From: Rhodospirillaceae bacterium
Lineage (GTDB): Bacteria; Pseudomonadota; Alphaproteobacteria; Bin65
NCBI GenBank assembly: GCA_026709535.1
Contig: JAPOST010000028.1
Span: forward strand, 1 to 34,715
DNA length: 34,715 bases
Reading direction: 5' to 3'
The translations under genes were made by a program, and so were the position numbers. How positions within the stretch are numbered: position 1 is the first letter of the stretch; the number at the start of each line of letters is the position of its first letter. This document shows, piece after piece, positions 4,570-25,649 of the stretch. A model generated the notes under the pieces. That model had not been told where the DNA came from and made no database searches. It was given only the letters and a program-made list of their open reading frames with translations.

Positions 4570-4983
4570 TGCAGAGTGTCTTTCCGAGGATGGCAGCTCT
4601 TCGCTGCGGGATATTTTTGACTCAGATAGCTGACCTCGAACAATACCCGAAGATGCTTTTCTTCGTCCTACCAGGTGGTGGGATCTCACCTCTTCAATGC
4701 ACTGCAGCAGACCAGCCGCCTCTGTGGAATGCTGATGTCGGTATCTTGTTTTGACTGCCCGCTGGAAGATGGCCCAAGCGCCATGATCGGCAAGTCCGCG
4801 AAAAGCGCGTTTCTGGCCAGCGATTTTCGGGTTTTCCGGTGCAGCCCGAATTCTCTGCATGCTGGTCAAGGGCGGAGGTCGTGTAAGGCCAAGTCTTTGT
4901 TTGCCGGCAGGCATGAAACTGTCGGCATCGCCATCGCTGGACATTGCCGCGCCATGAAGGGGGGTGTGATGGCCAATTCGGCG

Positions 4984-5032
4984 CAATTGATCTGCCAACG
5001 GCCTTGCTGACTTGGTTCTGTCAGATCAATTG
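4984..5032. repeat. 11-bp inverted repeat with 27-bp spacer upstream of soeA
   Basis: CAATTGATCTG at 4984-4994 is the exact reverse complement of CAGATCAATTG at 5022-5032. The right arm shares its TCAATTG with the left half of the 19-bp palindrome at 5026-5044, so the two structures are mutually exclusive if formed in RNA, or give three regulator half-sites in DNA. Confidence 0.6.
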
Positions 5033-5044
5033 TGCCACAATTGA
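5026..5044. promoter_or_regulatory. Perfect 19-bp palindrome, likely operator for soeABC and/or the divergent gene
   Basis: TCAATTGTG-C-CACAATTGA is a perfect 9-1-9 palindrome ending 40 bp before the soeA start. Its TTGTG...CACAA core is the form bound by dimeric repressors, GntR types among others. No regulator gene is adjacent, so the binding protein is unknown. Confidence 0.6.
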
Positions 5045-5084
5045 AGAGGCGCACGTATGCTGTGGCCTGTCAGGAGAATGAAAT

Positions 5085-7955
5085 TTGGGGCTCAATCCGT
5101 TTGAAACCGTCCGAGAGGCGGTCGACCTGTCTCCCGAGGTGGCAGATACCGTTAAAACCACTACCTGTTACATGTGTGCATGTCGGTGCGGGATCAAAGT
5201 TCATCTGAAAAACGGTAAGGTCCGCTATATCGAAGGAAACGGGGATCATCCGGTAAACCGCGGCGTTCTTTGCGCCAAGGGTTCCGCCGGAATCATGAAT
5301 CACTACAGCCCGGCGCGGCTTACCAAACCTCTGCGCCGGAAAGGTCCCCGCGGAAGCGGCGAATTCGAAGAGATCGAATGGGGTGAAGCCTTGGACGAGG
5401 CGGTGGAAGCGCTCGGCGCCGTGCGGGCCACCGATCCCAGGAAACTGGCCTTCTTTACCGGGCGCGATCAGAGCCAGTCGCTAACTGGCTGGTGGGCGAC
5501 ACAATTCGGCACTCCCAACTTTGCAGCCCATGGCGGCTTCTGTTCCGTCAACATGGCGGCGGCTGGCCTTTACACGTTGGGTGGCGCCTTTTGGGAGTTT
5601 GGTGAGCCGGATTGGGAACACACCAGGTATTTCATCATGTTCGGCGTTGCTGAGGACCATGATTCCAACCCGATCAAAATCGGCTTGGGCACCCTGAAAA
5701 CGCGCGGCGACGCCAAGTTTGTTTCGGTGAACCCGGTTCAAACTGGCTACTCGGCGATTGCCGATGAATGGATAGGCATTCGACCAGGAACCGATGGCCT
5801 GTTCGTCCTTGCCCTCGTTCATGAACTTCTGAAAGCGGAAAAGTTCGATACGGCCTTTTTGGCCCGGTACACCAATGCGCCTTGGCTGGTCATCCAGGAC
5901 CCGGGCGCTGCAGATGATGGTTTGTTTGTCCGGGACGATGACGGTAATCCGCTCGTATTCGACACAACTTCCGAATCGGTCGTGGCAAGCTCAGGAGTCG
6001 GCCTTAAGCCAGCATTGGTCGGCGAACATATCCTGATTGATGGCCGCAAGGCCGCGCCGGTCTTTCACCTGTTGGCGCACCGTTACCTGAAAGACGAATA
6101 CGCGCCGGAAGCAGTGGCGGACCGCTGCGGTCTTGACGTCGAACAGATCAGGCGGATAGCCGCTGAGTTGGCCGAGGTTGCCTTCGAGCAGGAAATCACT
6201 CTCGACATTTCATGGACGGATTGGAACGGCCGTGAGCACCAAACGATGACAGGGCGACCGGTCAGCTTCCACGGCATGCGTGGTATTTCGGCTCACTCCA
6301 ACGGTTTTCACACCTGCCGGGCCATTCATTTGCTGCAGATCCTGCTAGGCTCCATTGATGTACCGGGTGGCTGGCGTTACAAGGCGCCATTTCCGAAACC
6401 CATTCCGCCAAGCCCCAAGCCAGAGACCGCACCGCCGCAATCCGGCAAGCCCCTGGCCGGGCCACCGATCGGCAATCCGACCGGGCCGGAGGACCTGGTC
6501 CTGGACCCGGACGGCAGTCCCGGCCGGATCGACAAGGCCTATTCCTGGGAACACCCGATGTCCATCCATGGCCTGATGCACATGGTGATCCACAATGCCT
6601 GGGCAGAAGATCCGTATCCGATCGATGTCCTGCTGCTGTACATGGCGAACATGAGCTGGAATTCGTCAATGAACGTGCCTGATACGATCAAGTATCTGAC
6701 AGAAACGGACGACAACGGTGCTTATGTGATTCCCAAGATCATCTATTCGGACGCCTATTATTCCGAGATGGTGCCTTACGCGGACCTTATCCTGCCCGAC
6801 ACGACTTATCTGGAACGATGGGATTGCATTTCGCTGCTTGACCGGCCGATCTCCAGCGCACACGGACCGGCCGATGCCATCCGGCAACCGGTCTGCCCTC
6901 CGGAACGGGATGTCCGACCCTTCCAGGATGTCCTGCTGGATCTGGGCGCGCGGCTGGGGTTGCCGGGGATGGTCAGGGAGGATGGGACACCCAAATTTCC
7001 AGGTGGTTATGCCGACTACATGACCAACCACGAACGCGCACCTGGCATTGGTCCTCTGGCTGGCTGGCGTGGTAACGGGGCAGAACATGGACGCGGTGAT
7101 CCTAACCCGGATCAACTCCAAGCCTATATCGATAATGGCTGTTTCTGGCAACACCAGCTGACCGAGGAACAGCAATACTATAAGCCTTTCAACAAGGCTT
7201 ATCTGGTTTTTGCGCAAGAGATGGGTTTCATCCCGGCTGCTGAGCCGATGATTCTGCAGATCTACTCCGAGCCACTGCAACTGTTTCGCCTCGCCGCCCG
7301 CGGGCATGGCCAACGGAAACCGCCGGAGGAGCATCGGGCCCGCGTGGACACCTATTTCGATCCGCTGCCCATCTGGTACATGCCGTTCGAAGAGGCGGGC
7401 GTCGACACCAATGACCTGCCGCTTCATGCACTGACTCAACGTCCGATGCATATGTATCATTCGTGGGGCTCACAGAATGCCTGGCTGCGCCAGATCACGA
7501 ACAGCAACCGGCTTTTCATTCACCCCGAAACCGCTGATGACCTCGGTATCGCCGACGATGAATGGGTCTGGATCGAAAGCCATTTGGGTCGCGTCAAGGG
7601 CCAGGTGAAATTGATGAGGGGCGTCAACCGGCAGACCGTTTGGACATGGAATGCCATTGGCAAGCGCCGAGGTGCATGGGGCTTGGACAACGACGCGCCG
7701 GAGGCCGCGAAAGGCTTTCTGCTGAATCATGTCATCAGCGAGCTGTTACCGGTCCGGGAGGGCGGATATCGCCATTCCAATTCGGACCCGGTCACCGGCC
7801 AGGCTGCATGGTTCGATCTGCGGGTAAAGGTCTACAGATGTTCACCGCAGGAAGCCGGGGCGACAGAGCCCATGTTCGAACCGATGCAAGAGCGAGCGCC
7901 CTTCCGGCCAGCTGACGGCGTCGTGCGCTATGGTCAGGAATTCAATACATCATGA
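5085..7955 (+). CDS. soeA: Sulfite dehydrogenase (quinone) molybdopterin catalytic subunit
   Basis: 956 aa beginning with TTG at 5085. AGGAGA at 5072-5077 lies 7 nt upstream, and the nearby ATG at 5078 is out of frame. The N-terminus carries a 4Fe-4S motif, C28-x2-C31-x3-C35 and C63 (CYMCACRCG ... GVLCAKG), followed by a full molybdopterin oxidoreductase body and a C-terminal molydopterin dinucleotide-binding domain. The protein has no twin-arginine signal, in line with the cytoplasmic SoeA of Allochromatium-type SoeABC, which oxidises sulfite to sulfate and passes electrons to quinone. Length and the three-subunit order (catalytic, Fe-S, NrfD/DmsC-type anchor) match. A related activity such as polysulfide/thiosulfate or DMSO reductase cannot be excluded by eye. 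The stop overlaps the soeB start. Confidence 0.82.
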   Translation: MGLNPFETVREAVDLSPEVADTVKTTTCYMCACRCGIKVHLKNGKVRYIEGNGDHPVNRGVLCAKGSAGIMNHYSPARLTKPLRRKGPRGSGEFEEIEWGEALDEAVEALGAVRATDPRKLAFFTGRDQSQSLTGWWATQFGTPNFAAHGGFCSVNMAAAGLYTLGGAFWEFGEPDWEHTRYFIMFGVAEDHDSNPIKIGLGTLKTRGDAKFVSVNPVQTGYSAIADEWIGIRPGTDGLFVLALVHELLKAEKFDTAFLARYTNAPWLVIQDPGAADDGLFVRDDDGNPLVFDTTSESVVASSGVGLKPALVGEHILIDGRKAAPVFHLLAHRYLKDEYAPEAVADRCGLDVEQIRRIAAELAEVAFEQEITLDISWTDWNGREHQTMTGRPVSFHGMRGISAHSNGFHTCRAIHLLQILLGSIDVPGGWRYKAPFPKPIPPSPKPETAPPQSGKPLAGPPIGNPTGPEDLVLDPDGSPGRIDKAYSWEHPMSIHGLMHMVIHNAWAEDPYPIDVLLLYMANMSWNSSMNVPDTIKYLTETDDNGAYVIPKIIYSDAYYSEMVPYADLILPDTTYLERWDCISLLDRPISSAHGPADAIRQPVCPPERDVRPFQDVLLDLGARLGLPGMVREDGTPKFPGGYADYMTNHERAPGIGPLAGWRGNGAEHGRGDPNPDQLQAYIDNGCFWQHQLTEEQQYYKPFNKAYLVFAQEMGFIPAAEPMILQIYSEPLQLFRLAARGHGQRKPPEEHRARVDTYFDPLPIWYMPFEEAGVDTNDLPLHALTQRPMHMYHSWGSQNAWLRQITNSNRLFIHPETADDLGIADDEWVWIESHLGRVKGQVKLMRGVNRQTVWTWNAIGKRRGAWGLDNDAPEAAKGFLLNHVISELLPVREGGYRHSNSDPVTGQAAWFDLRVKVYRCSPQEAGATEPMFEPMQERAPFRPADGVVRYGQEFNTS

Positions 7956-8713
7956 CCAGCCTGCCTGCAGCGCCGCCGTCGAAGAAGCTGGGTCTGGTTG
8001 TCGATCTTGATATCTGCGTTGGCTGCCACGCCTGTGCCGTCAATTGCAAGGAATGGAACACCAGCGGCCACATGGCGCCGCTGACCGACCTGGATGCCTA
8101 CGGCGCCGACCCGAACGGTGTCTGGTTCAACCGGATCCACACGTTTGAAGTGACCGACGAGGCGACCGGCGCAAGCCAGACGGTTCATTTTCCGCGTTCC
8201 TGCCTGCATTGTGATGATGCTCCATGCGTTACCGTATGTCCGACCGGGGCGTCCTACAAGCGGAGCGACGACGGCATCGTGCTGGTCAACGCCGATACAT
8301 GCATCGGCTGCAAGCTATGTTCCTGGGCCTGCCCTTACGGCGCGCGTGAGTATGACGAACACGAAGGCGTGATGAAGAAATGCACGCTGTGTGTCGACAA
8401 GATTTACAATGAGACACTGCCTGAAGAGTCTCGTGTCCCTGCCTGTGTTTCGACTTGCCCCACCGGCGCCCGGCACTTCGGCGACCTGGCCGATCCGGAA
8501 TCTGATGTCTCGAAGCTGGTTGCGACGCGGCAGGGATTTGAACTGATGCCAGAACAGGGCACCAAGCCCGTAAACCGGTATTTGCCGCTGCGCCCGCGGC
8601 AGGATGACCGCGATGGTACTATGTCTACGCCCCGCACCCTGGACCATGTCGACGACAGCGCCGATGGCGCGGGTCTGCTGGCCCGCTGGGTTGACAGGTT
8701 GCTATCGGCTTGA
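7952..8713 (+). CDS. soeB: Sulfite dehydrogenase 4Fe-4S electron-transfer subunit
   Basis: 253 aa. Its ATG overlaps the soeA stop as ATGA, indicating translational coupling. Sixteen cysteines in four groups can bind four 4Fe-4S clusters: C22/25/28/32 (CVGCHACAVNC), C84/87/92/96 (CLHCDDAPCVTVC), C117/120/123/127 (CIGCKLCSWAC) and C144/147/165/169 (CTLC ... CVSTC). This is the DmsB/PsrB/NrfC type, which relays electrons from the molybdenum subunit to the membrane anchor. There is no signal sequence, so it should sit on the cytoplasmic face. The last ~45 residues after the final cluster are a polar tail of variable type. Confidence 0.85.
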   Translation: MTSLPAAPPSKKLGLVVDLDICVGCHACAVNCKEWNTSGHMAPLTDLDAYGADPNGVWFNRIHTFEVTDEATGASQTVHFPRSCLHCDDAPCVTVCPTGASYKRSDDGIVLVNADTCIGCKLCSWACPYGAREYDEHEGVMKKCTLCVDKIYNETLPEESRVPACVSTCPTGARHFGDLADPESDVSKLVATRQGFELMPEQGTKPVNRYLPLRPRQDDRDGTMSTPRTLDHVDDSADGAGLLARWVDRLLSA

Positions 8714-8726
8714 CGGAGACCTTCTG

Positions 8727-9671
8727 GTGCATCCGGCGAAATCCGTTATCTTCTTCACGACCGCGTCCGGCGCCGGGTACGGCCTGATACTCTGGCTCGG
8801 CACGCTGTCAGCTTGGAGGCTGTTGCCCGCCGATCAAGGTTTCGGGTTGGCGGTCTTCGCCGTTGCGCTCGCCTTGATCGTCGTTGGCCTGCTGTCCTCG
8901 ACCCTTCACCTCGGCCATCCGGAACGAGCCTGGCGTGCCTTGAGTCAGTGGCGCTCCTCGTGGCTGAGCCGTGAGGGCGTTGCCGCCATTTTGGCCTTTG
9001 TTCCGATTGGGTTGTTCGGTATTTGGTGGGTGTTCCTGGCGCAAAATACGGGCGTCGCGCTCGTTTTCGGCATCGTGGCGGCACTTGCAGCCATGATCAC
9101 CGTCTATTGCACGGCCATGATTTATGCCTCGCTTAAGACGATTCCGGCCTGGTCGAACGGCTGGACCATCCTGAGTTACCTGGGTCTTTGCGCCATGACT
9201 GGCGCATTGCTGTTGCACCTTGCCGTCTCGCTTTGGGGTTGGCAGGTGCAGCAAAGCACCGGCATAGTTGCGCTGACGACAACTGCAGTCAGCCTTCTTG
9301 TCAAGCTGCGTTACTGGTCCACCATATCAAAGCCAAAGAAGGATAGTAACGCCGGTACGGCGACCGGCCTGGGCCAAATGGGGACGGTTCGTCTGCTGGA
9401 ATCACCGCATTCGTCAGACAATTATCTGATGAAGGAAATGGGGTTTCGGATTGCCCGCGAGCACGCACACAAGCTGCGCACGATTGCCATTGTCACCGGG
9501 TTCATGATCCCGGCCGCGGCCCTGGCCATTGGTCTGACGGTTGGCGCGACGCCGCTGATGGCGATCATTGCGGTCTTGGCAGCATGCCCTGGCGTCGTCA
9601 TCGAACGCTGGTTGTTCTTCGCCGAAGCAAGGCATGTAGTCATGCTGTATTACGGCGCGGAAGCTGTCTGA
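8727..9671 (+). CDS. soeC: Sulfite dehydrogenase membrane anchor, DmsC/NrfD-like
   Basis: 314 aa from GTG at 8727, chosen because GGAG at 8715-8718 is 8 nt upstream and the sequence becomes family-like from HPAKSVIFFTT. An open frame runs further upstream inside soeB but is not protein-like. The protein is very hydrophobic, with about eight predicted membrane helices, and includes SSTLHLGHPERAWRA, typical of DmsC-type anchors. It would hold SoeAB at the inner membrane and donate electrons to the quinone pool. The gap to soeB is 13 bp, so this is the third gene of one operon. No clear terminator follows. Confidence 0.8.
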   Translation: MHPAKSVIFFTTASGAGYGLILWLGTLSAWRLLPADQGFGLAVFAVALALIVVGLLSSTLHLGHPERAWRALSQWRSSWLSREGVAAILAFVPIGLFGIWWVFLAQNTGVALVFGIVAALAAMITVYCTAMIYASLKTIPAWSNGWTILSYLGLCAMTGALLLHLAVSLWGWQVQQSTGIVALTTTAVSLLVKLRYWSTISKPKKDSNAGTATGLGQMGTVRLLESPHSSDNYLMKEMGFRIAREHAHKLRTIAIVTGFMIPAAALAIGLTVGATPLMAIIAVLAACPGVVIERWLFFAEARHVVMLYYGAEAV

Positions 9672-10383
9672 TGCAGATCATGGCATGATTGGCGCCGCGG
9701 CATCCTGCAATATATCAAACATGATCAGGCAGCCGATGTGATCGTCGTATCCCGCGACAGCATCGTGCTCTGCAATGCCCTTGCTTGCGGTGGAGGGTGG
9801 GCCCGGAAATCTGCTGCCGGTGACCAAGTCCCTGTGTGCCGCAGGAAAACAGGCGAGTTGTCGCTCACGACGTCTCAGGCTCGGAGCATGCCAGCGCGAC
9901 CGGTCCGACATGACACCGGGTCCAAAGTCCTTGCACAGGCCCGATCGCCACAAGCACCGGTTTCGAGCGTCAACGGTTGAGTCAAGCCGACCTTGACCAG
10001 GCTCCGTTGCGGGTTCTTGCGCGTTGCAACGTCGAGCATGTCCGGCGCAGGTCGACCGAATCAACGATCACGGTTTCGAGTAGGCGAGACGGACGCCGCT
10101 CCCAGCCTCCGGGACCATCCATTTCTGTCGCCATCGGCAGAACCTCTGCAATCGGCTCGGCCGGTTGGCTCATGCTGCGACCGTCCAGCTCGTCATCATG
10201 TGAAGGCGCTCACTCGCAGCAGATTTTCGATCATCAATCATCCGCCGGATCTGATCCACATGAGGCTTCGAGCCCGAACGTGCCTTGATGACCACGGCCG
10301 AGTTTTCTGGCAGGCATGCAGCAGTCATGCAAGATGATTGGCTTCCGGTCGCCAGGAAGCACCACGACGGCGTGTTAGGCTGA
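9672..10383. other. 712-bp region without a confident gene, possibly a decayed locus
   Basis: Nothing here is recognisable. On the minus strand a 52-aa frame (10328 to 10170) and a 63-aa frame (10173 to 9982) overlap as ATGA and have moderately protein-like composition, with phrases such as ENSAVVIKARSG and LLETVIVDSVDLRR. A third frame (10064 to 9678) continues downstream of them. This could be a frameshifted remnant of one minus-strand gene, but I could not assign a family. It lies between the convergent ends of soeC and the dioxygenase gene. Confidence 0.3.
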
Positions 10384-11283
10384 TCAGGCAGCTTCAGTCG
10401 TCCTGTCTTCACCGGCTTGCGCCGCGAAGATCGATGTGTAGCCGCGAGACCAGTCCGGTGGAATCTGGCACGGCCTCGGATCGTGCGACGCCCATTTGAC
10501 AGCCTTGCCCCGAACGATCCTGTAGGCATTCTCTGTGGGATCTGGATGGGCAGTATAGGGTTTGGCGTCTGCCGACGTGAAACAGTTCAGCAGCAGCGGC
10601 CGCGGCGTGCGAGATTGGGACGGAGGTGAAAAATGCAGGGTCCGGGCATTATGGACCGTGATTGATCCCGCCGGTCCCGGCAAATACGCCACGCGGTTCA
10701 AATCCAGGCTCGCTGCATCGTCATCGGACAGCATCCCGGTCCAGTTGCCGTTGACATCGTACTGATCGAACAGCGGCTCGTTATGAGAACCCTTCAGCAC
10801 TGCCAAGGGGCCATTGTTCATGTCGGTATCGGCCAGGTAGCAGCCGATGGTTATGACATTGTAGTTGGTGTGCGGGAAGAACTGAATGTCCTGATGCCAT
10901 TTCACGATATCGCTCCCGTCGAACCATTTGAAGTTCAATTTTGAATGATGGAACACCACATTTGGCCCGACAAGATCCGCCGCCACATCCGCGATCAAGC
11001 CTGTTGAAAATTTCCAGTAGACCGCGCTGGCTGTATCCGGACTTTTCAGGCGTCGCAAGAGGGGGGACTCAGCGCTGTGCCCCGGTCCAATGTCGAATCG
11101 ATCATTCGAAGCTGAAACGGCGCGGCTTTCATCGACGTAATCGTTCGTGACCCGTTGCAACTCGGCCAGAACTTCCGTCGGAATCAAGCTTTCGACGCTG
11201 ACATAACCGTCTTCGAAATATTGCTCCCGTTTGTGTTGGGGCAAAACACGGGCTGGGTACTTCAAGATCTCTTCGGGGGTCAT
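10384..11283 (-). CDS. Phytanoyl-CoA dioxygenase (PhyH) family oxygenase
   Basis: 299 aa from ATG at 11283. A GTG directly before it (11286) is also in frame, but AAGGA lies 7 nt before the ATG. This is an Fe(II)/2-oxoglutarate-dependent double-stranded beta-helix oxygenase: the HxD metal motif is KWHQDIQF (H130, D132), the distal His is in TLHFSPP (about H217), and the 2-oxoglutarate-binding Arg is near R228 (SRTPRPLL). The family hydroxylates alkyl chains, acids or acyl-CoAs, consuming O2 and 2-oxoglutarate. It lies 116 bp downstream of the PanB-like gene on the same strand and probably shares its promoter and MarR control. The substrate is not determined; sequence alone does not separate acyl-CoA from free-acid or sulfonate substrates. 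Confidence 0.8.
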   Translation of the reverse strand: MTPEEILKYPARVLPQHKREQYFEDGYVSVESLIPTEVLAELQRVTNDYVDESRAVSASNDRFDIGPGHSAESPLLRRLKSPDTASAVYWKFSTGLIADVAADLVGPNVVFHHSKLNFKWFDGSDIVKWHQDIQFFPHTNYNVITIGCYLADTDMNNGPLAVLKGSHNEPLFDQYDVNGNWTGMLSDDDAASLDLNRVAYLPGPAGSITVHNARTLHFSPPSQSRTPRPLLLNCFTSADAKPYTAHPDPTENAYRIVRGKAVKWASHDPRPCQIPPDWSRGYTSIFAAQAGEDRTTEAA

Positions 11284-11399
11284 CACGCAATCCTTCTATA
11301 TTTTGAGTGCATCAATCGCAAAGGGCTGTCTTGTCGGCGCACGAAAAGGGAAACGCCATGCGATCGCGCGTGAAACGGCCTTTCTGAAGGATTTGAGCG

Positions 11400-19493: not shown

Positions 19494-20222
19494 CTACAGG
19501 CCCAGTTGGCGCAGTCGCAGCACCCGCTGACGGCGGGCGAGCATACCGGCTTGGCTACGCAGGATCAGCACCGTCAGGAAATAGAACATGAAGCCGAGGA
19601 TCATCAGCAGCAGCGGCCAGAGCATCGCGGAATGTATCGATGGCCCAGACAGCTTCATGATACTGGCAGGCTGGTGCAGCGTGCTCCACCAATCGACCGA
19701 AAACTTGATGATCGGCAGGTTGACGACGCCCACGACGGCCAGCAAGGCAGCAGCGCGTGCACCGCGCTGTGGATCGTCGAAAGCCCGTGCCAGGGCGATA
19801 TGACCGAGGTAGAGGAAAAACAGCACCAGCACGGAGGTCAGGCGTGCATCCCAGACCCACCACGCACCCCACATGGGCTTGCCCCACAGCGCGCCGGTGG
19901 CGAGCGCCAGCGCCGTGAAGCAGGCACCGATTGGCGAGGCGGCCTGGGCAACGATGTCAGCCACTGCATGGCGCCAGATCAGGCTCGCGGCACTGCACGC
20001 TGCGATCACCAGATACGTGAACAGGGCCATCCAGGCCGACGGCACATGGACATACATGATTCGCACGCTTTCGCCCTGCTGGTAGTCGGCCGGCGAAAAT
20101 AGCAGACTCCAAGGCAGGCCGATGCCCAGGCAAAGGACCATGGCGGCAAAGCACCAGGGATACAGACCATTTGTCAGCCGCTGAAATCGGACCGGATTGG
20201 CGAAACCATGGATCATCGTCAC
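19494..20222 (-). CDS. ccmC: Haem exporter protein CcmC
   Basis: 242 aa from GTG 20222 or 240 aa from the in-frame ATG at 20216 (MIHGFANPVRF); the second is closer to family N-termini. Six membrane helices, the tryptophan-rich haem-handling loop WGKPMWGAWWVWD (about 111-123 from the ATG) and the flanking periplasmic histidines (YVHVPSAW and TLHQPAS) identify CcmC. It loads haem onto CcmE for covalent attachment to c-type cytochromes, such as CcoO and CcoP encoded further right. No ccmA, ccmB, ccmD or ccmE lies in the window, and the 288 bp downstream hold no CcmD-like membrane peptide. The IS1595-type element begins 78 bp upstream of the GTG and may have separated the gene from its original promoter or neighbours. 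Confidence 0.92.
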   Translation of the reverse strand: MTMIHGFANPVRFQRLTNGLYPWCFAAMVLCLGIGLPWSLLFSPADYQQGESVRIMYVHVPSAWMALFTYLVIAACSAASLIWRHAVADIVAQAASPIGACFTALALATGALWGKPMWGAWWVWDARLTSVLVLFFLYLGHIALARAFDDPQRGARAAALLAVVGVVNLPIIKFSVDWWSTLHQPASIMKLSGPSIHSAMLWPLLLMILGFMFYFLTVLILRSQAGMLARRQRVLRLRQLGL

Positions 20223-20292: not shown

Positions 20293-20300
20293 ATTTGTTT
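20293..20300. repeat. Left 8-bp target duplication of the IS1595-type element
   Basis: ATTTGTTT directly abuts the left inverted repeat. It matches ATTCGTTT at 24399-24406 beyond the right repeat in 7 of 8 positions. IS1595-family elements typically duplicate 8 bp. Confidence 0.65.
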
Positions 20301-20367
20301 GGCGCCATTATACATTACAAACCATGAGGCGTCATTCTAACGTCGCCACCTGCCAAGTGAGGGCGAT

Positions 20368-22740
20368 ATGGCGAAGACAGATGGCTGGAAAGGCTCTAGA
20401 CTAGAAAACCCGCAACCCGCAAGAAGCCCGAGGCCATGTCCGGGAAGAAGTATTCAACATTGCACTGGGTGAAGCGCTGCAAAGCGCAACAGCACAATGG
20501 CGGGCGGAACCGGGACTTTTACAAGTCGAACGGACTAGCGTTCTGTCGGGGCGCGGAAATTCCGGCAAACGCCCGGACGTTCTGATTGTCGATCCGCGCT
20601 CCCCGCCATCCGTGATCGAGTGTTCCTAGGACTCGGCGGACGCAGACAAGGACGCTATCGCCAGACTCGGCGCGACCGTCCGACACGGACGGCGCGAAAT
20701 CAAGACGGCCGTTTCCGTTCACATTCCGGCGGCGTTCCGGTCGAGCGAATCGGCAAGGGATGACTTGATCGCCGGGGCAGAGATTCGATTTGCGCTGTAC
20801 CAGAAAGCCGATGACGTGCACCGCCGCTGGCCGGCCGCCGGATTTATCGCGGGCGGGATTCAGGATCTGGCCGCACTGCTGTCCGCCGCGTCACTGCCGA
20901 AAGAGGAAATTGAGTGCACCTCCGACGATGTGGCGGTGCTGATAGACGAGGCGGCAGACGGTCTCGAAGCGCTGCCCGAAATGACGAAGCAGCAGATCGA
21001 CAGCCGGATCAATCGCGGGTCGATCCTGAAAAGCCTGAAAACGGCGATGGTGATTTGGCTGAATGCGTTGCTGACACAGCAACGGTTGCACGGCCAGAAC
21101 GTTGCCGATATTCCGTCGCTCGATTTCACGCGCCGAGCGCTGCCATTGCATTCCGAACAAATCGCGATATGGCGGCGGATACAGGCAGAGAATTGGCGCG
21201 CGATATTCGATCCTGCGATAGAGATTCTGGAGATTGCGGCAATTCCGAATTGCGCGCGACCGGGGAGGCGCTGGCAAACCTGACACGAGCCGTCGAGAAA
21301 ATCGAGGTGGCCGGTCTGGGACTGCATATCAATGTTGGGGCCGAGCTTTTCCCGAAGTTGAGCGAAGACCGCAAACAGGCCGCGGCCTTCTACACACAGG
21401 CGGCAACGGCGGAATTGCTCGCCACACTCACAATCCGGCGAAGCGACCTGTCGGCGGAGCAATGGGCGGATCGTTCCCTGTTTGCCGCTCGATCCCTTGC
21501 GGATATGGCCTGCGGGGCCGGGACGCTGCTACGGGCTGGCTATCGGCGCATACAGGCCATTCACGAGTCTTCGGGCGGCACGGTCGAAACCGTCGGCGAG
21601 CTGGACCGGCGCGCAATGGAGACCGGCCTTGTCGGGGCTGATGTCAGCCCAATCGCCGCGCATCTCACATCGGCGTCTCTGGCCGCCATAGGCCAGGGCG
21701 AATCGTATGGCGATACCCCGATCGTCGGCGGGGCGAACGACGCCACAGGGTCGCTTGAGTATTTCGAGGCGCGGGCGTTGCGGGACTTGTTCCACAACGT
21801 CGCCGGTCGCTCTGCAGGCAGCGGCGAACAAAACGAATTTTCGGTCGATATTCCCGATGACAGCGTTGACTGGATTTTGATGAATCCGCCCTACTCGCGA
21901 ACCCGCGGCGGCCAAAGCGCGTTCGATATTGCCGGTCTGCTTGAACGCGAACGGAAAGCATGTCAGCGCCGATGGGGGCGGCTTATCAGGAACCAGCCGG
22001 CCAACGCACGGGCCGGCATAGGCGCGTCGTTTCTGGCTCTGGCCCGAAAGAAGGTCCGACCGGGCGGCCGAATTGGATTCGTCCTGCCGCTGACTGCCAC
22101 GTTCGCCGATAGCTGGGCGGCGACAAGGTGCATGATCGAGCGGGATTTCACCGGCATAGCAGCCGTTGCCGTCGCCGCCGGGCAGGCACTGGGCAGAGAC
22201 GCGCTATCCGCCGACACCGGGATGGAGGAAATGATGTTGATCGCCACCCGGCGCACGGGACCGGCCAGGACAAATGAGCGGTCACCGGTGCACTGCGTAA
22301 CGCTGGCCGCCCCGGCCACAAGATCGGGCGAGGCCGGGGAGATCGCGCGGGCCATTGCCGGCGCGCTCAATCGGGTTGGCGGTGTCGGGGCGAGCCGCCC
22401 TGTCGTCGTGGGGGATACCGAAATCGGGCAGGTCTGCGTTTTCGACCCGGGCGGCGAAGGTGCGCCATGGGGGGCCGTTGGGCGTCATGCACGCTGGGCT
22501 TGCCGTTGCCGCGGACAATCTGGCGCACGGCCGGCTGGATTTCCTCGGCACATCCGTCGAATTGCCGACCGGCATGACAACGCTGGGCGAGATGTTCCGC
22601 GTCGGCCCGACGCACGATTTGATCGGCCACTTGCACGGCGGCGACGGCAGGGGCGCGTTTGAGCTTTTCCCGGTCACAGGAACGGCGGACGCCATCGGCA
22701 ACGACAGGTCGTTATGGGCCGCCTACAGCAAGGCGCGGCG
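20368..22740 (+). pseudogene. Nuclease-DNA adenine methyltransferase (Type IIG-like) pseudogene
   Basis: The likely start is ATG 20368 (MAKTDGWKGSRLENPQP) after AGTGAGGG, just inside the left repeat. A frameshift near 20420-20430 leads to EARGHVREEVFNIALGEAL, and KRPDVLIVDP then PSVIEC looks like a PD-(D/E)xK nuclease core without its Lys. TAG at 20627 interrupts it. A second shift at about 21235-21265 moves to the methyltransferase frame: motif I DMACGAGT (21502-21525), GADVSPIAAHL, and motif IV NPPY (21883-21894). A third shift, at or near the G run 22469-22474, leads to HGRLDFLGTSVELPTG ... RSLWAAYSK. Similarity fades at about 22740, where it meets the end of the opposite-strand ORF. At least four lesions make it non-functional. 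It was probably a self-modifying restriction enzyme carried as passenger. Confidence 0.75.
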
Positions 22741-23457
22741 CTATCGCCGACGCACAAGGGCGTGCATGTCGTCGGCGGCAAGTAGCCCGCGGAAAGCTTC
22801 GATGGGCATGTCGCTGTAAGGGAATGACACCACTTCTTCCGCTTTGATACTTGTCGGTTGGCCGTTCGGGTCGTAATGCACCGTGCCGTGCGCCGCGACA
22901 CGTTGGCGCCACATTTCGCGCATGGAATCGACCACATCATCAGGAACCGTGCACTTGACGGCGATATTCCATATCGGTTCGGAAATGATGAAGTATGGAT
23001 GCCCGCGAGCGCTAAGCGTATCGAGAGTGCCCTCGATAGTGCCGTATTCCGAAAACGGACCGGGGCGTCGAGGCATGACGTCCTGATCTGGCTGCAGGAT
23101 GTCCTTGCGGTCTTCGCCAGTCAAAAGCCTCGTCACGGGGACCGGTCTCGGGAAGCGATCAAGTCGCTCGCGAATGCGTGGAGGCGGCCGGCGAACGGTT
23201 TCCTGGATCGATGCCACCGTTTTGGCATCCACCGTGTCTGGAATGTCGGCGGCGATGAGCAGACTGCCCTCGGAAACCGAGATTTCCCAACGAACGGAAT
23301 CGGGATGGCCGCAAGATTCTTCGGAAAATTCACGCAGCAAATTGGTGAAGTCTTGGACGACACGCCGAAAATCGCGGTAGGGAACCTTCCCCGGACCGAG
23401 CTCCAAGGTAAGAATAGGAGATGGGGTGTCGTCGCTTGCCATGATCGCAACATCCAT
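22741..23457 (-). CDS. Uncharacterised protein carried inside the IS1595-type element
   Basis: 238 aa from ATG 23457, or 233 aa from ATG 23442 (MASDDTPSP); no strong ribosome-binding site favours either. I do not recognise a named family. Two parts are visible: an N-terminal half with an amphipathic YRDFRRVVQDFTNLLREF and SVSEGSLLIAADIP, and a C-terminal half with GTIEGTLDTLSARGHPYFII, a conserved-looking beta unit, followed by VAAHGTVHYDPNGQPTSIKA. It resembles beta-barrel domains seen in uncharacterised proteins of mobile or defence regions. It is cytoplasmic, with no membrane segment. It starts 15 bp after the transposase stop on the same strand, so it was probably read through from the transposase. 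It is the only gene of the element with an unbroken frame. Confidence 0.55.
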   Translation of the reverse strand: MDVAIMASDDTPSPILTLELGPGKVPYRDFRRVVQDFTNLLREFSEESCGHPDSVRWEISVSEGSLLIAADIPDTVDAKTVASIQETVRRPPPRIRERLDRFPRPVPVTRLLTGEDRKDILQPDQDVMPRRPGPFSEYGTIEGTLDTLSARGHPYFIISEPIWNIAVKCTVPDDVVDSMREMWRQRVAAHGTVHYDPNGQPTSIKAEEVVSFPYSDMPIEAFRGLLAADDMHALVRRR

Positions 23458-23471
23458 AAAGGCAGTCGAAA

Positions 23472-24331
23472 CTAACCCGAGGACGAGTCCCGGTAAAGCA
23501 ACCTGCGGCCAACTGCACCCTTCAGGACGATCACAGCCCGCGCCACGTCTTCTGGACCGTTGCCGATCCGGTTGTCGTAGCGGGACTCGAACCGGAATGC
23601 GTGGCGGTGCAGGCGGCGCTCGGAGCAATGCCGGCAGACGCCCTTCATGCCGCGCTTGAAGATGCTGAAACAGCCCTTGATGGTGTTGGTGCGCACCGGG
23701 CCGCGACCGTGCTCGCCCGCGCTGTGGCGGACATGCTCATGGCTGGCGAAGGCAGCGATGCTGCCCAGCATCGTCCGTGCAGACTGTGGCCTCCTTGGCG
23801 ATGTTGTCCAGCAGGGTCGGCGTGAACGTCCCGGCCTTCAGGTCGTCTGCCGCCATGGACCTGGCGCGGCCTGTCTCGCTCTTGTCCAGGCCGGTGAAAG
23901 TCTCGTCGACCTCCGCTTCGCCGCCGCCGGAACCGAAATTCACCGTGCCGTCGTCGCGCATTGCCGCGCGGATACGATGGCTCATGAGCCACGCGCTCTT
24001 GAGCGTGATGCCGAGCGTCCGATGAAGCTGATTGGCGCTGATACCCCCCTCGCTGCCGGTCATCAGGCAGATAGCCTATAGCCACAGGTGCAGGTCGATA
24101 TGGCTTTCCTCGAAGATCGTGCCGGTCCGCACGCCTTGCACTTCCTCAGGCCGTGGCGCTCCTTGCCTTCCGGGCGCTTCTTCGACGGCTTGCTCCGAAC
24201 ACCCTTCAACTCGTATGCCTCGCCGATCACGCCGCACTTGGGGCAAACCGGGCCGGCCGGCCACAACATCGCCTCGACATGGGCGAAGCCGCGGCTTCGT
24301 CGTGCATGTACGGGGCTGAAAGAACTGACAT
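23472..24331 (-). pseudogene. IS1595-family (ISXO2-like) transposase pseudogene
   Basis: Start ATG at 24331 (MSVLSAPYMHDEAAA) with GGGAG upstream. A frameshift then gives FAHVEAMLWPAGPVCPKCG, the zinc-ribbon beginning typical of IS1595 transposases. A further shift or deletion follows KCKAC, TAG replaces a Gln codon after HLWL, and intact text resumes with EGGISANQLHRTLGITLKSAW. The segment between VDETFTGLDK and ARSMAADDLK lacks the usual middle of the catalytic domain. CTDDA supplies the second Asp region, and another shift leads to NTIKGCFSIFKRGMKGV and KGAVGRRLLYR at the C-terminus. The normal protein is about 300 aa; this one cannot be translated as a whole. Confidence 0.85.
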
Positions 24332-24398
24332 GGGGCACTCCCGTTCCCGATGGTCAGCATAGGGGATTGCCCTTTAGTTTGTAAAGTATATTGGCGCC

Positions 24399-24406
24399 AT
24401 TCGTTT
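24399..24406. repeat. Right 8-bp target duplication of the IS1595-type element
   Basis: ATTCGTTT follows the right inverted repeat and matches the left copy (20293-20300) except at the fourth base. Confidence 0.65.
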
Positions 24407-24758: not shown

Positions 24759-24780
24759 TTAAGTGCGAATTAAGTGCGAA
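24759..24780. repeat. Exact 11-bp tandem repeat just before the FNR start
   Basis: TTAAGTGCGAA occurs twice in immediate succession (24759-24769 and 24770-24780), ending 2 bp before ATG 24783. The second copy supplies an in-frame GTG at 24774. It occupies the position where a ribosome-binding site would be expected, and none is visible. Confidence 0.7.
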
Positions 24781-24782
24781 AC

Positions 24783-25649
24783 ATGGTCGTAGAGGACTTT
24801 TCGCTTGGCGGCAAAAAGAGCTTGGGTGATCTGCCTTGTCTGTTCTGCCGGGCGCGGTCGAGTTCCATCTGCAGCGTTTTGGGCAATGAAGAAATCAAGT
24901 GCCTGAATGATATCGTCAGCCGCCGGTCGCTTGCGGAAGGCGCGCGCCTTTTTGAAGAGGGCGACAACGCGGTCGACTATTTCGTGGTCACGGAAGGTTG
25001 CCTGATGGTCTTCAAGGAGACTTATGACGGCCGCCGCCAGATTACCGGTTTCCTGTATCCCGGTGACATGCTGGGGCTGAACGATCGCCAACACTATGTC
25101 TATACCGCAGAAGCACTGCAGGATTCCATCCTTTGCCAGTACCCGATTTCAGAACTGAACGGACTTTTCCGGGACTTTCCGGACATGGAACACTGGATGC
25201 TGAAACATTGTTCAAACGAACTGGTTTCCGCGCACGACCAGATGTTCCTGCTGGGTCGCAAGAACGCGGCGGAAAAGATCGCGACCTTCCTGTTGTTACT
25301 TCTTTTGCGGTCGCAACGGCAGTTGTCGGAGACAGACAGTCTGGAATTGCCAATGTCCCGTCGCGATATCGCCGATTATCTGGGCTTGACCGTCGAGACT
25401 GTCAGCCGCACCATCACCCGGCTGCGCCGGGATCGTATCATCGAAACCGTTGGCAAAGATGTCATCGAAATTCTTGATATTCAAGCTCTCAGGGTGCGGG
25501 CCTGCATCGGCAACGACTGGGCGCCTGCGGCGTTAACTTGTCAGGCGCCGCACCACTCCGAACGAGAAAAATACGCCGAAAAGGGTAAAGACCGCGCCAG
25601 CGAAGCCGAACATGTCGTCGGAAGCGCGCGAGATCATGAACAGTCCTAG
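24783..25649 (+). CDS. fnrL: FNR-type oxygen-sensing Crp/Fnr family regulator
   Basis: 288 aa from ATG 24783 (GTG at 24774 is also in frame). Cysteines C19, C22 and C30 (LPCLFCRARSSSICSVL) plus C118 (SILCQYPI) give the four ligands for an O2-labile 4Fe-4S cluster. A cyclic-nucleotide-binding-like beta roll follows (GFLYPGDMLGL), then a dimerisation helix, and the helix-turn-helix MSRRDIADYLGLTVETVSRTITRL at about 191-214, with the E-x2-S-R residues that read TTGAT half-sites. Without O2 it should dimerise and activate genes such as ccoNOQP; a matching box lies at 26633-26646. Typical FnrL ends near residue 240-250. The last ~40 residues here are antisense to the small membrane protein gene and look like run-on sequence. 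Confidence 0.9.
   Translation: MVVEDFSLGGKKSLGDLPCLFCRARSSSICSVLGNEEIKCLNDIVSRRSLAEGARLFEEGDNAVDYFVVTEGCLMVFKETYDGRRQITGFLYPGDMLGLNDRQHYVYTAEALQDSILCQYPISELNGLFRDFPDMEHWMLKHCSNELVSAHDQMFLLGRKNAAEKIATFLLLLLLRSQRQLSETDSLELPMSRRDIADYLGLTVETVSRTITRLRRDRIIETVGKDVIEILDIQALRVRACIGNDWAPAALTCQAPHHSEREKYAEKGKDRASEAEHVVGSARDHEQS

Follow-up and report, generated by a model that had tools for sequence, protein, structure and literature searches.

The IS1595 family of insertion sequences (IS) contains the subgroups ISPna2, ISH4, IS1595, IS1016, ISSod11, ISNwi1 and ISNha5. The window analysed here is a whole stretch of 34,715 nucleotides from a Rhodospirillaceae bacterium (contig JAPOST010000028.1), and a 4,098-bp unit in it (20301-24398) was identified as a dead member of this family. 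Duplications of 8 bp were described for the IS1595 family (PMC8101967). An IS carrying passenger genes is named transporter IS (tIS) (PMC3129680), and ISNha5 was cited with a regulator passenger (PMC11891212); the source on tIS cited by both of the latter papers is the IS1595 paper of 2009. Transposons of the Tn3 family carry toxin-antitoxin passengers, including PIN toxins, which were gained repeatedly (PMC7157771). The tIS blur the border between IS and transposon, and their choice of cargo is little documented in the literature examined. The unit in the window is a dead copy of the already-known tIS form, and it likely derives from an intact ancestor which held an orf-PIN pair (an open reading frame followed by a PIN nuclease gene) and a convergent restriction-methyltransferase, and which later underwent an internal deletion.

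The unit was bounded by terminal inverted repeats with GGC tips, 20 of 22 positions matching, and by direct repeats matching at 7 of 8, as the first-pass annotation had described. Among the inverted pairs of the window (at least 18/22 matches, spacing 3.5-4.7 kb), this was the sole one with flanking 8-mers matching at more than 4 of 8 positions. The window ends deviated at a few positions from the consensus GG(C/G)(G/A)ATT, which was built from 68 ends of relatives. Since relatives had the same end type together with perfect 8-bp duplications, the two repeats are genuine element ends. The end pattern had no second site in the 3.67-Mb assembly with up to 3 mismatches allowed, and no further copy of the 4.1-kb element was present in its own genome, which held just two other IS1595 fragments.

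A transposase pseudogene was revealed at the right side of the unit. Its zinc ribbon matched Zn_ribbon_IS1595 (PF12760, 5.8e-11, over the curated Pfam cut-off), and its catalytic domain matched DDE_Tnp_IS1595 of Pfam in one fragment (PF12762, 3.8e-6, 27.4 bits versus a cut-off of 27). The NCBIfam model transpos_IS1595 (NF033547) was matched at 1.4e-16, with two fragments of 61 and 28.8 bits, both under the cut-off of 75 because the gene was broken. Its pieces were spread over the reading frames by three or more frame changes, and a stop interrupted it internally; when the pieces were merged against the nearest relative, the window read NTIKGCFSIFKRGMKG and the intact relatives NTVEGYFSIFKRGMKG. 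The position of the catalytic Glu was occupied by Lys (NTIKGCFS versus NTVEGYFS in intact relatives), so the third catalytic residue was gone. The zinc ribbon, the DDE domain, the GG-tipped repeats of ~20-25 bp and the 8-bp duplication (7/8) were all found as in the IS1595 family. The copy lacked the DDE triad in intact form and an unbroken reading frame, which are marks of activity and not of membership; it is a dead IS1595 element which is still a family member. True borders, both transposase domains and broken genes bear out the earlier proposal of a passenger-carrying IS1595-family element with decayed content and a broken transposase.

In a tree of 35 transposases, the window copy grouped (support 100/99) with those of genome G260, Pseudosulfitobacter pseudonitzschiae plasmid P1 and Sulfitobacter guttiformis plasmid pSD118, and this group was nested inside the clade of passenger-carrying elements. 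Relatives of an intact transposase were found in 103 of 385 alphaproteobacterial genomes. Complete elements could be delimited at 34 of the closer loci (end match at least 17/22), with a perfect 8-bp duplication in 30 of them. All 34 were 1.8-4.3 kb long and none was without extra DNA; a simple 1-kb IS would pass the filter and none did, so every delimited element held extra DNA. Three more elements from plasmids (Methylobacterium oryzae pMOC1, Roseomonas marmotae p1318-1 and P. pseudonitzschiae P1) gave a total of 37. Passenger genes unrelated to transposition sat between the IS ends in the window and in intact relatives. Thus the window element, for which the first-pass annotation had suggested an undescribed subgroup, belongs to a widespread tIS-type IS1595 lineage, which is frequent among Alphaproteobacteria and agrees with tIS as already known. 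At locus L137 two different, opposite-facing IS1595 transporter elements (4772-7053 and 7063-9415) were separated by a gap of 9 bp, and a perfect 8-bp duplication flanked each of them separately.

The gene next to the transposase remnant, orf239, was intact and belonged to the orf239/orf250 family. It had 59% identity with the copy of genome G295, with nonsynonymous divergence (dN) of 0.34 and synonymous divergence (dS) of 2.9, the synonymous sites being near saturation; the orf is under purifying selection. The family (alignment A1) was present in 12 of 385 genomes, and A1 was too variable as a profile for a collection-wide scan. No match was obtained in plasmids with the window and L042 sequences as queries, nor in viral contigs or PDB. 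A PIN gene was located directly downstream of the orf250-family gene in ten genomes (G026, G290, G334, G184, G043, G307, G044, G224, G355 and G353), and also on pMOC1, where RefSeq annotated it as a VapC family toxin, and on p1318-1, where the orf homology was weak, yet upheld by two profiles (3.6e-6 and 4.9e-12). The PIN domain matches in relatives reached 1.2e-13 and 3.7e-9. The PIN gene followed the orf wherever downstream DNA existed, except in the window and in G295 (contig end), and no PIN match or remnant was detectable in the window.

Four complete, duplication-flanked elements carried transposase, orf and PIN in this order. The G026 element (2709 bp, perfect 26-bp ends, 8/8 duplication) was composed of transposase, orf250, PIN and orf146, and the G290 element (4306 bp, 7/8 duplication) of transposase, orf287, PIN, a small gene and a convergent DNA methyltransferase, a layout as in the window. 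The pMOC1 element (3413 bp, 8/8 duplication) was annotated in RefSeq as IS1595 transposase, hypothetical protein, VapC family toxin and small open reading frame (ORF), and the p1318-1 element measured 2604 bp (8/8 duplication). Transposase, methyltransferase, orf and PIN also occurred in G307 (locus L079), where one end only was found and the element was not delimited. At seven loci the orf-PIN pair had no transposase nearby, which makes the pair a module in its own right. It resembled VapBC systems in the PIN domain, the upstream partner gene and, in relatives, the overlapping or adjacent reading frames; in contrast to VapB, the partner had ~240-290 amino acids and no VapB-type domain was found in it. 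The orf-PIN genes are probably a toxin-antitoxin pair, as predicted from their sequences and arrangement, of which the window would keep the partner half only. The ORF that had first been taken for an unknown partner is thus indeed open, but it does not stay unknown, being the first gene of a toxin-antitoxin-like pair which recurs in the lineage.

The methyltransferase homology ended and the orf239 homology started at ~22785 (Table 1), the DNA homology to the methyltransferase relative L030 reached ~22763, and the present orf239 stop fell in antisense methyltransferase DNA. In G290 the corresponding interval was filled by PIN, the small gene and the methyltransferase C-terminus, its methyltransferase being of another family. 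One internal deletion would have made this junction, and PIN and tiny genes may have been present in the window's own ancestor.

Table 1. Features of the IS1595-family unit and its neighbours in the window
Feature	Position	Strand	Remarks
ccmC-like gene, left neighbour	19494-20222	-	WGAWWVWDARLTS motif, by eye
Left target-site duplication	20293-20300		ATTTGTTT; 7/8 versus 24399-24406
Left terminal inverted repeat (IRL), GGC tip	20301-20322	+	GGCGCCATTATACATTACAAAC; 20/22 versus right end; 68-end consensus of relatives
N-terminal nuclease-like and helical part	20426-21285	+	35-64% identity to single-gene relatives L030-L041
N6-adenine methyltransferase part, NPPYSR motif	21290-22785	+	51-70% identity to L030-L041
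Putative deletion junction, methyltransferase 3' end to orf239 3' end	22780-22790		no PIN gene and no tiny gene A
Intact ORF of the orf239/orf250 family, putative antitoxin-side gene	22744-23442	-	ATG at 23442, stop at 22744
Transposase pseudogene of the IS1595 family with zinc ribbon and DDE domain	23472-24331	-	Pfam and NCBIfam matches; full-length yet broken
Right terminal inverted repeat (IRR)	24377-24398	-	inward reading GGCGCCAATATACTTTACAAAC
Right target-site duplication	24399-24406		ATTCGTTT
FNR-type regulator gene, right neighbour	24774-25649	+	

The restriction-methyltransferase passenger was broken, as had been supposed, with a stop codon inside its N-terminal part (20627-20629), frame changes near 21285, 22475 and 22750, and the last ~200 amino acids missing relative to the full-length family. 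This family consisted of single proteins of ~1,000 amino acids from Verrucomicrobiae, Gammaproteobacteria, Bacteroidota, Bryobacterales, Paracoccaceae and others, and no homologue was found in phages. In genome contigs, IS1595 ends or a transposase of the window kind were absent at 12 of 12 close-relative loci, so the window gene looks like one captured gene, and the suggestion that the element spreads a nuclease-methyltransferase was left unsupported. The AlphaFold2 model of the full-length homologue L030 (predicted local distance difference test, pLDDT, 71; predicted template modelling score, pTM, 0.76) gave the type IIG enzymes BpuSI, BsaXI and DrdV as top Foldseek matches, and also PglX of BREX, while a second aligner scored CamA and type I M subunits highest and aligned DrdV from residue 5. 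By this model, the passenger would be a type IIG-like restriction-methyltransferase, the single-chain order of the type IIG enzymes and PglX being predicted for L030, and the whole-model match suggests the nuclease-like identity of the N-terminal part. Unlike in type IIG enzymes, the nuclease-like motif lacked the usual Lys, and the window copy was broken and truncated. In 11 sequences, compared with the catalytic motif PD-(D/E)xK, the motif read D-x13-E-x-S, with D59 and E73 invariant and the usual Lys position never Lys, which makes cleavage activity doubtful. Tandem, near-identical copies of a ~985-amino-acid restriction-methyltransferase gene were observed in a Bacteroidetes metagenome-assembled genome (L034:5134-8094 and 8408-11362), and another relative (L040:5161-10583) was interrupted by a ~2.5 kb insert with a transposase-like ORF.

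When compared with the described systems, the lineage shares with IS1595 tIS the zinc ribbon and DDE_Tnp_IS1595 domains, 8-bp duplications, GG-tipped ends and passengers. It differs from known IS1595 tIS in its passengers, which were here a restriction-methyltransferase and a toxin-antitoxin-like pair, and in the conserved tiny gene of the relatives. A toxin-antitoxin-type pair as transposon passenger is also a feature of the Tn3 family, but the transposase is unrelated, no resolvase or res site was seen, the pair stood directly behind the transposase, and the orf250 partner is outside the antitoxin families listed in PMC7157771. A literature search combining IS1595, toxin-antitoxin and passenger found no such elements in titles and abstracts. 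The lineage form with orf-PIN pair and tiny gene is a variant which is possibly undescribed.

In the intact ancestor, an orf250-type gene, the gene of the PIN nuclease and tiny gene A would have followed the transposase, with a type IIG-like restriction-methyltransferase pointing towards them from the opposite end. Through recognition of the GGC-tipped ends, the ancestral transposase would have placed the unit in an AT-rich 8-bp site between the ccmC-like and fnr-like genes, duplicating the site. The orf-PIN pair would most likely act as a toxin-antitoxin (addiction) module penalising element loss, and the restriction-methyltransferase would be a second passenger, selfish or defensive in kind. 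Afterwards frameshifts and a stop codon would have arisen in both the transposase and the methyltransferase, and a single internal deletion would have taken the last ~200 methyltransferase codons together with the PIN and tiny genes, leaving orf239 as the sole intact gene. Several observations weigh against this history. Neither an intact copy of the exact window element nor an empty site was found in the own assembly or in congeners. Half of the orf-PIN loci were outside IS1595 elements, and the five orf-PIN carriers in the tree were scattered within one 15-row clade, which together indicate that the pair enters and leaves the backbone. No known antitoxin domain was detected in the orf250 family. 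The pair was not seen in the nearest transposase kin of the window (G260, Pseudosulfitobacter and S. guttiformis), so a PIN gene may have been lacking in the window element from the start.

It could also be supposed that the restriction gene entered a transposase-orf element separately by insertion or recombination, in which case the repeats would be the old ends of a smaller element and the whole 4.1-kb unit may never have moved. None of the 12 close restriction-methyltransferase relatives was inside an IS1595 element and the nearest transposase kin held other cargo, but the whole unit was flanked by the matching ends and one duplication, and G290 has this convergent methyltransferase layout in an intact element, which leaves such separate entry quite improbable. 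Somewhat less unlikely is that orf239 was an accessory or regulatory gene instead of an antitoxin, the PIN nuclease acting in another role, for example phage defence; no antitoxin or DNA-binding domain is known from the orf250 family, whose members exceed the usual antitoxin size, and orf239 stayed open in the window despite the lack of a PIN gene. However, the PIN gene of pMOC1 is a VapC family toxin in RefSeq, and the occurrence of the pair at loci without a transposase nearby argues against a role in transposition. Inverted and direct repeats that merely happen to lie around unrelated, decayed genes would allow for the one duplication mismatch and the two repeat mismatches, but by a simple random-sequence estimate of our own only ~1e-5 such bordered pairs would be expected, and the same end type flanked many relatives with perfect duplications, which refutes chance; its probability is negligible. 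The decayed tIS with an internal deletion was therefore kept as the best explanation.

Two families of short charged proteins (~45-65 amino acids), A or B, were present in 30 of the 37 elements whatever the cargo. Family A (RFxxAARExGxDEDxxxF) was found in 13 elements, mostly in the clade of the window, and family B (RRDxVLxRMLxTPPKPHK) in 17, mostly in the sister clade. Family A was absent from all 68 element flanks and family B was in two of them, both being the adjacent twin element. In 357 genomes, a listed lineage transposase was no more than 2 kb away from 15 of the 21 matches to family A and from 21 of the 35 to family B, although these transposases fill a tiny share of each genome. No family A match was found in the window, which either lost A or never had it. 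Examples among the 37 elements are L042:5089-7797, L137, L150 and L169:693-4105. Tentatively, and with less than even confidence, the lineage could be viewed as a two-gene backbone, namely the transposase and a clade-specific A or B protein acting in transposition or its control, plus a cargo slot often filled by toxin, nuclease or restriction genes which stabilise the element, so that the cargo would not be random. IS1595 transposition would gain a new component if A and B act in it.

Among 62 passenger ORFs, the Pfam matches included PIN (2), GmrSD_N (2), HNH, N6_N4_Mtase with Mrr_cat, SocA_Panacea, HEPN_MAE_28990, RelA_SpoT, DUF433 beside PIN_10, and NYN. The 61 flank ORFs treated in the same way gave chiefly metabolic families among the first 25, a contrast which is qualitative only. 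PADLOC was tried as a measure of defence enrichment and rejected, since hits were many in the passengers and in the control flank genes alike, those of the control mainly to generic ATPase models. The delimited elements suggest that the cargo of the lineage comprises toxin-antitoxin-like pairs (orf-PIN, DUF433-PIN_10 and a Panacea antitoxin), RNase-type HEPN and NYN proteins, RelA/SpoT-like proteins, GmrSD/HNH nuclease proteins, and methyltransferases. This cargo parallels the toxin-antitoxin passengers of the Tn3 family, and it opens the stabilisation idea to tests in small elements. In single IS1595 elements, a GmrSD_N protein was beside a HEPN protein of the MAE_28990 type (L148:4165-5911), and a Panacea antitoxin-like gene (L152:5490-5951), a DUF433-PIN_10 pair (L130:4257-5344) and a RelA/SpoT-like protein (L159:5852-7030) were observed. 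A passenger family of ~175-265 amino acids recurred in six elements (L052, L137, L141, L157, L164 and L167), one member having a weak HEPN match.

As for the genes on both sides of the unit, the intergenic DNA of congeners was not in common with the window, and ccmC and fnr were on separate contigs in all five congeners where both turned up; the ccmC genes of congeners had 78-80% DNA identity.

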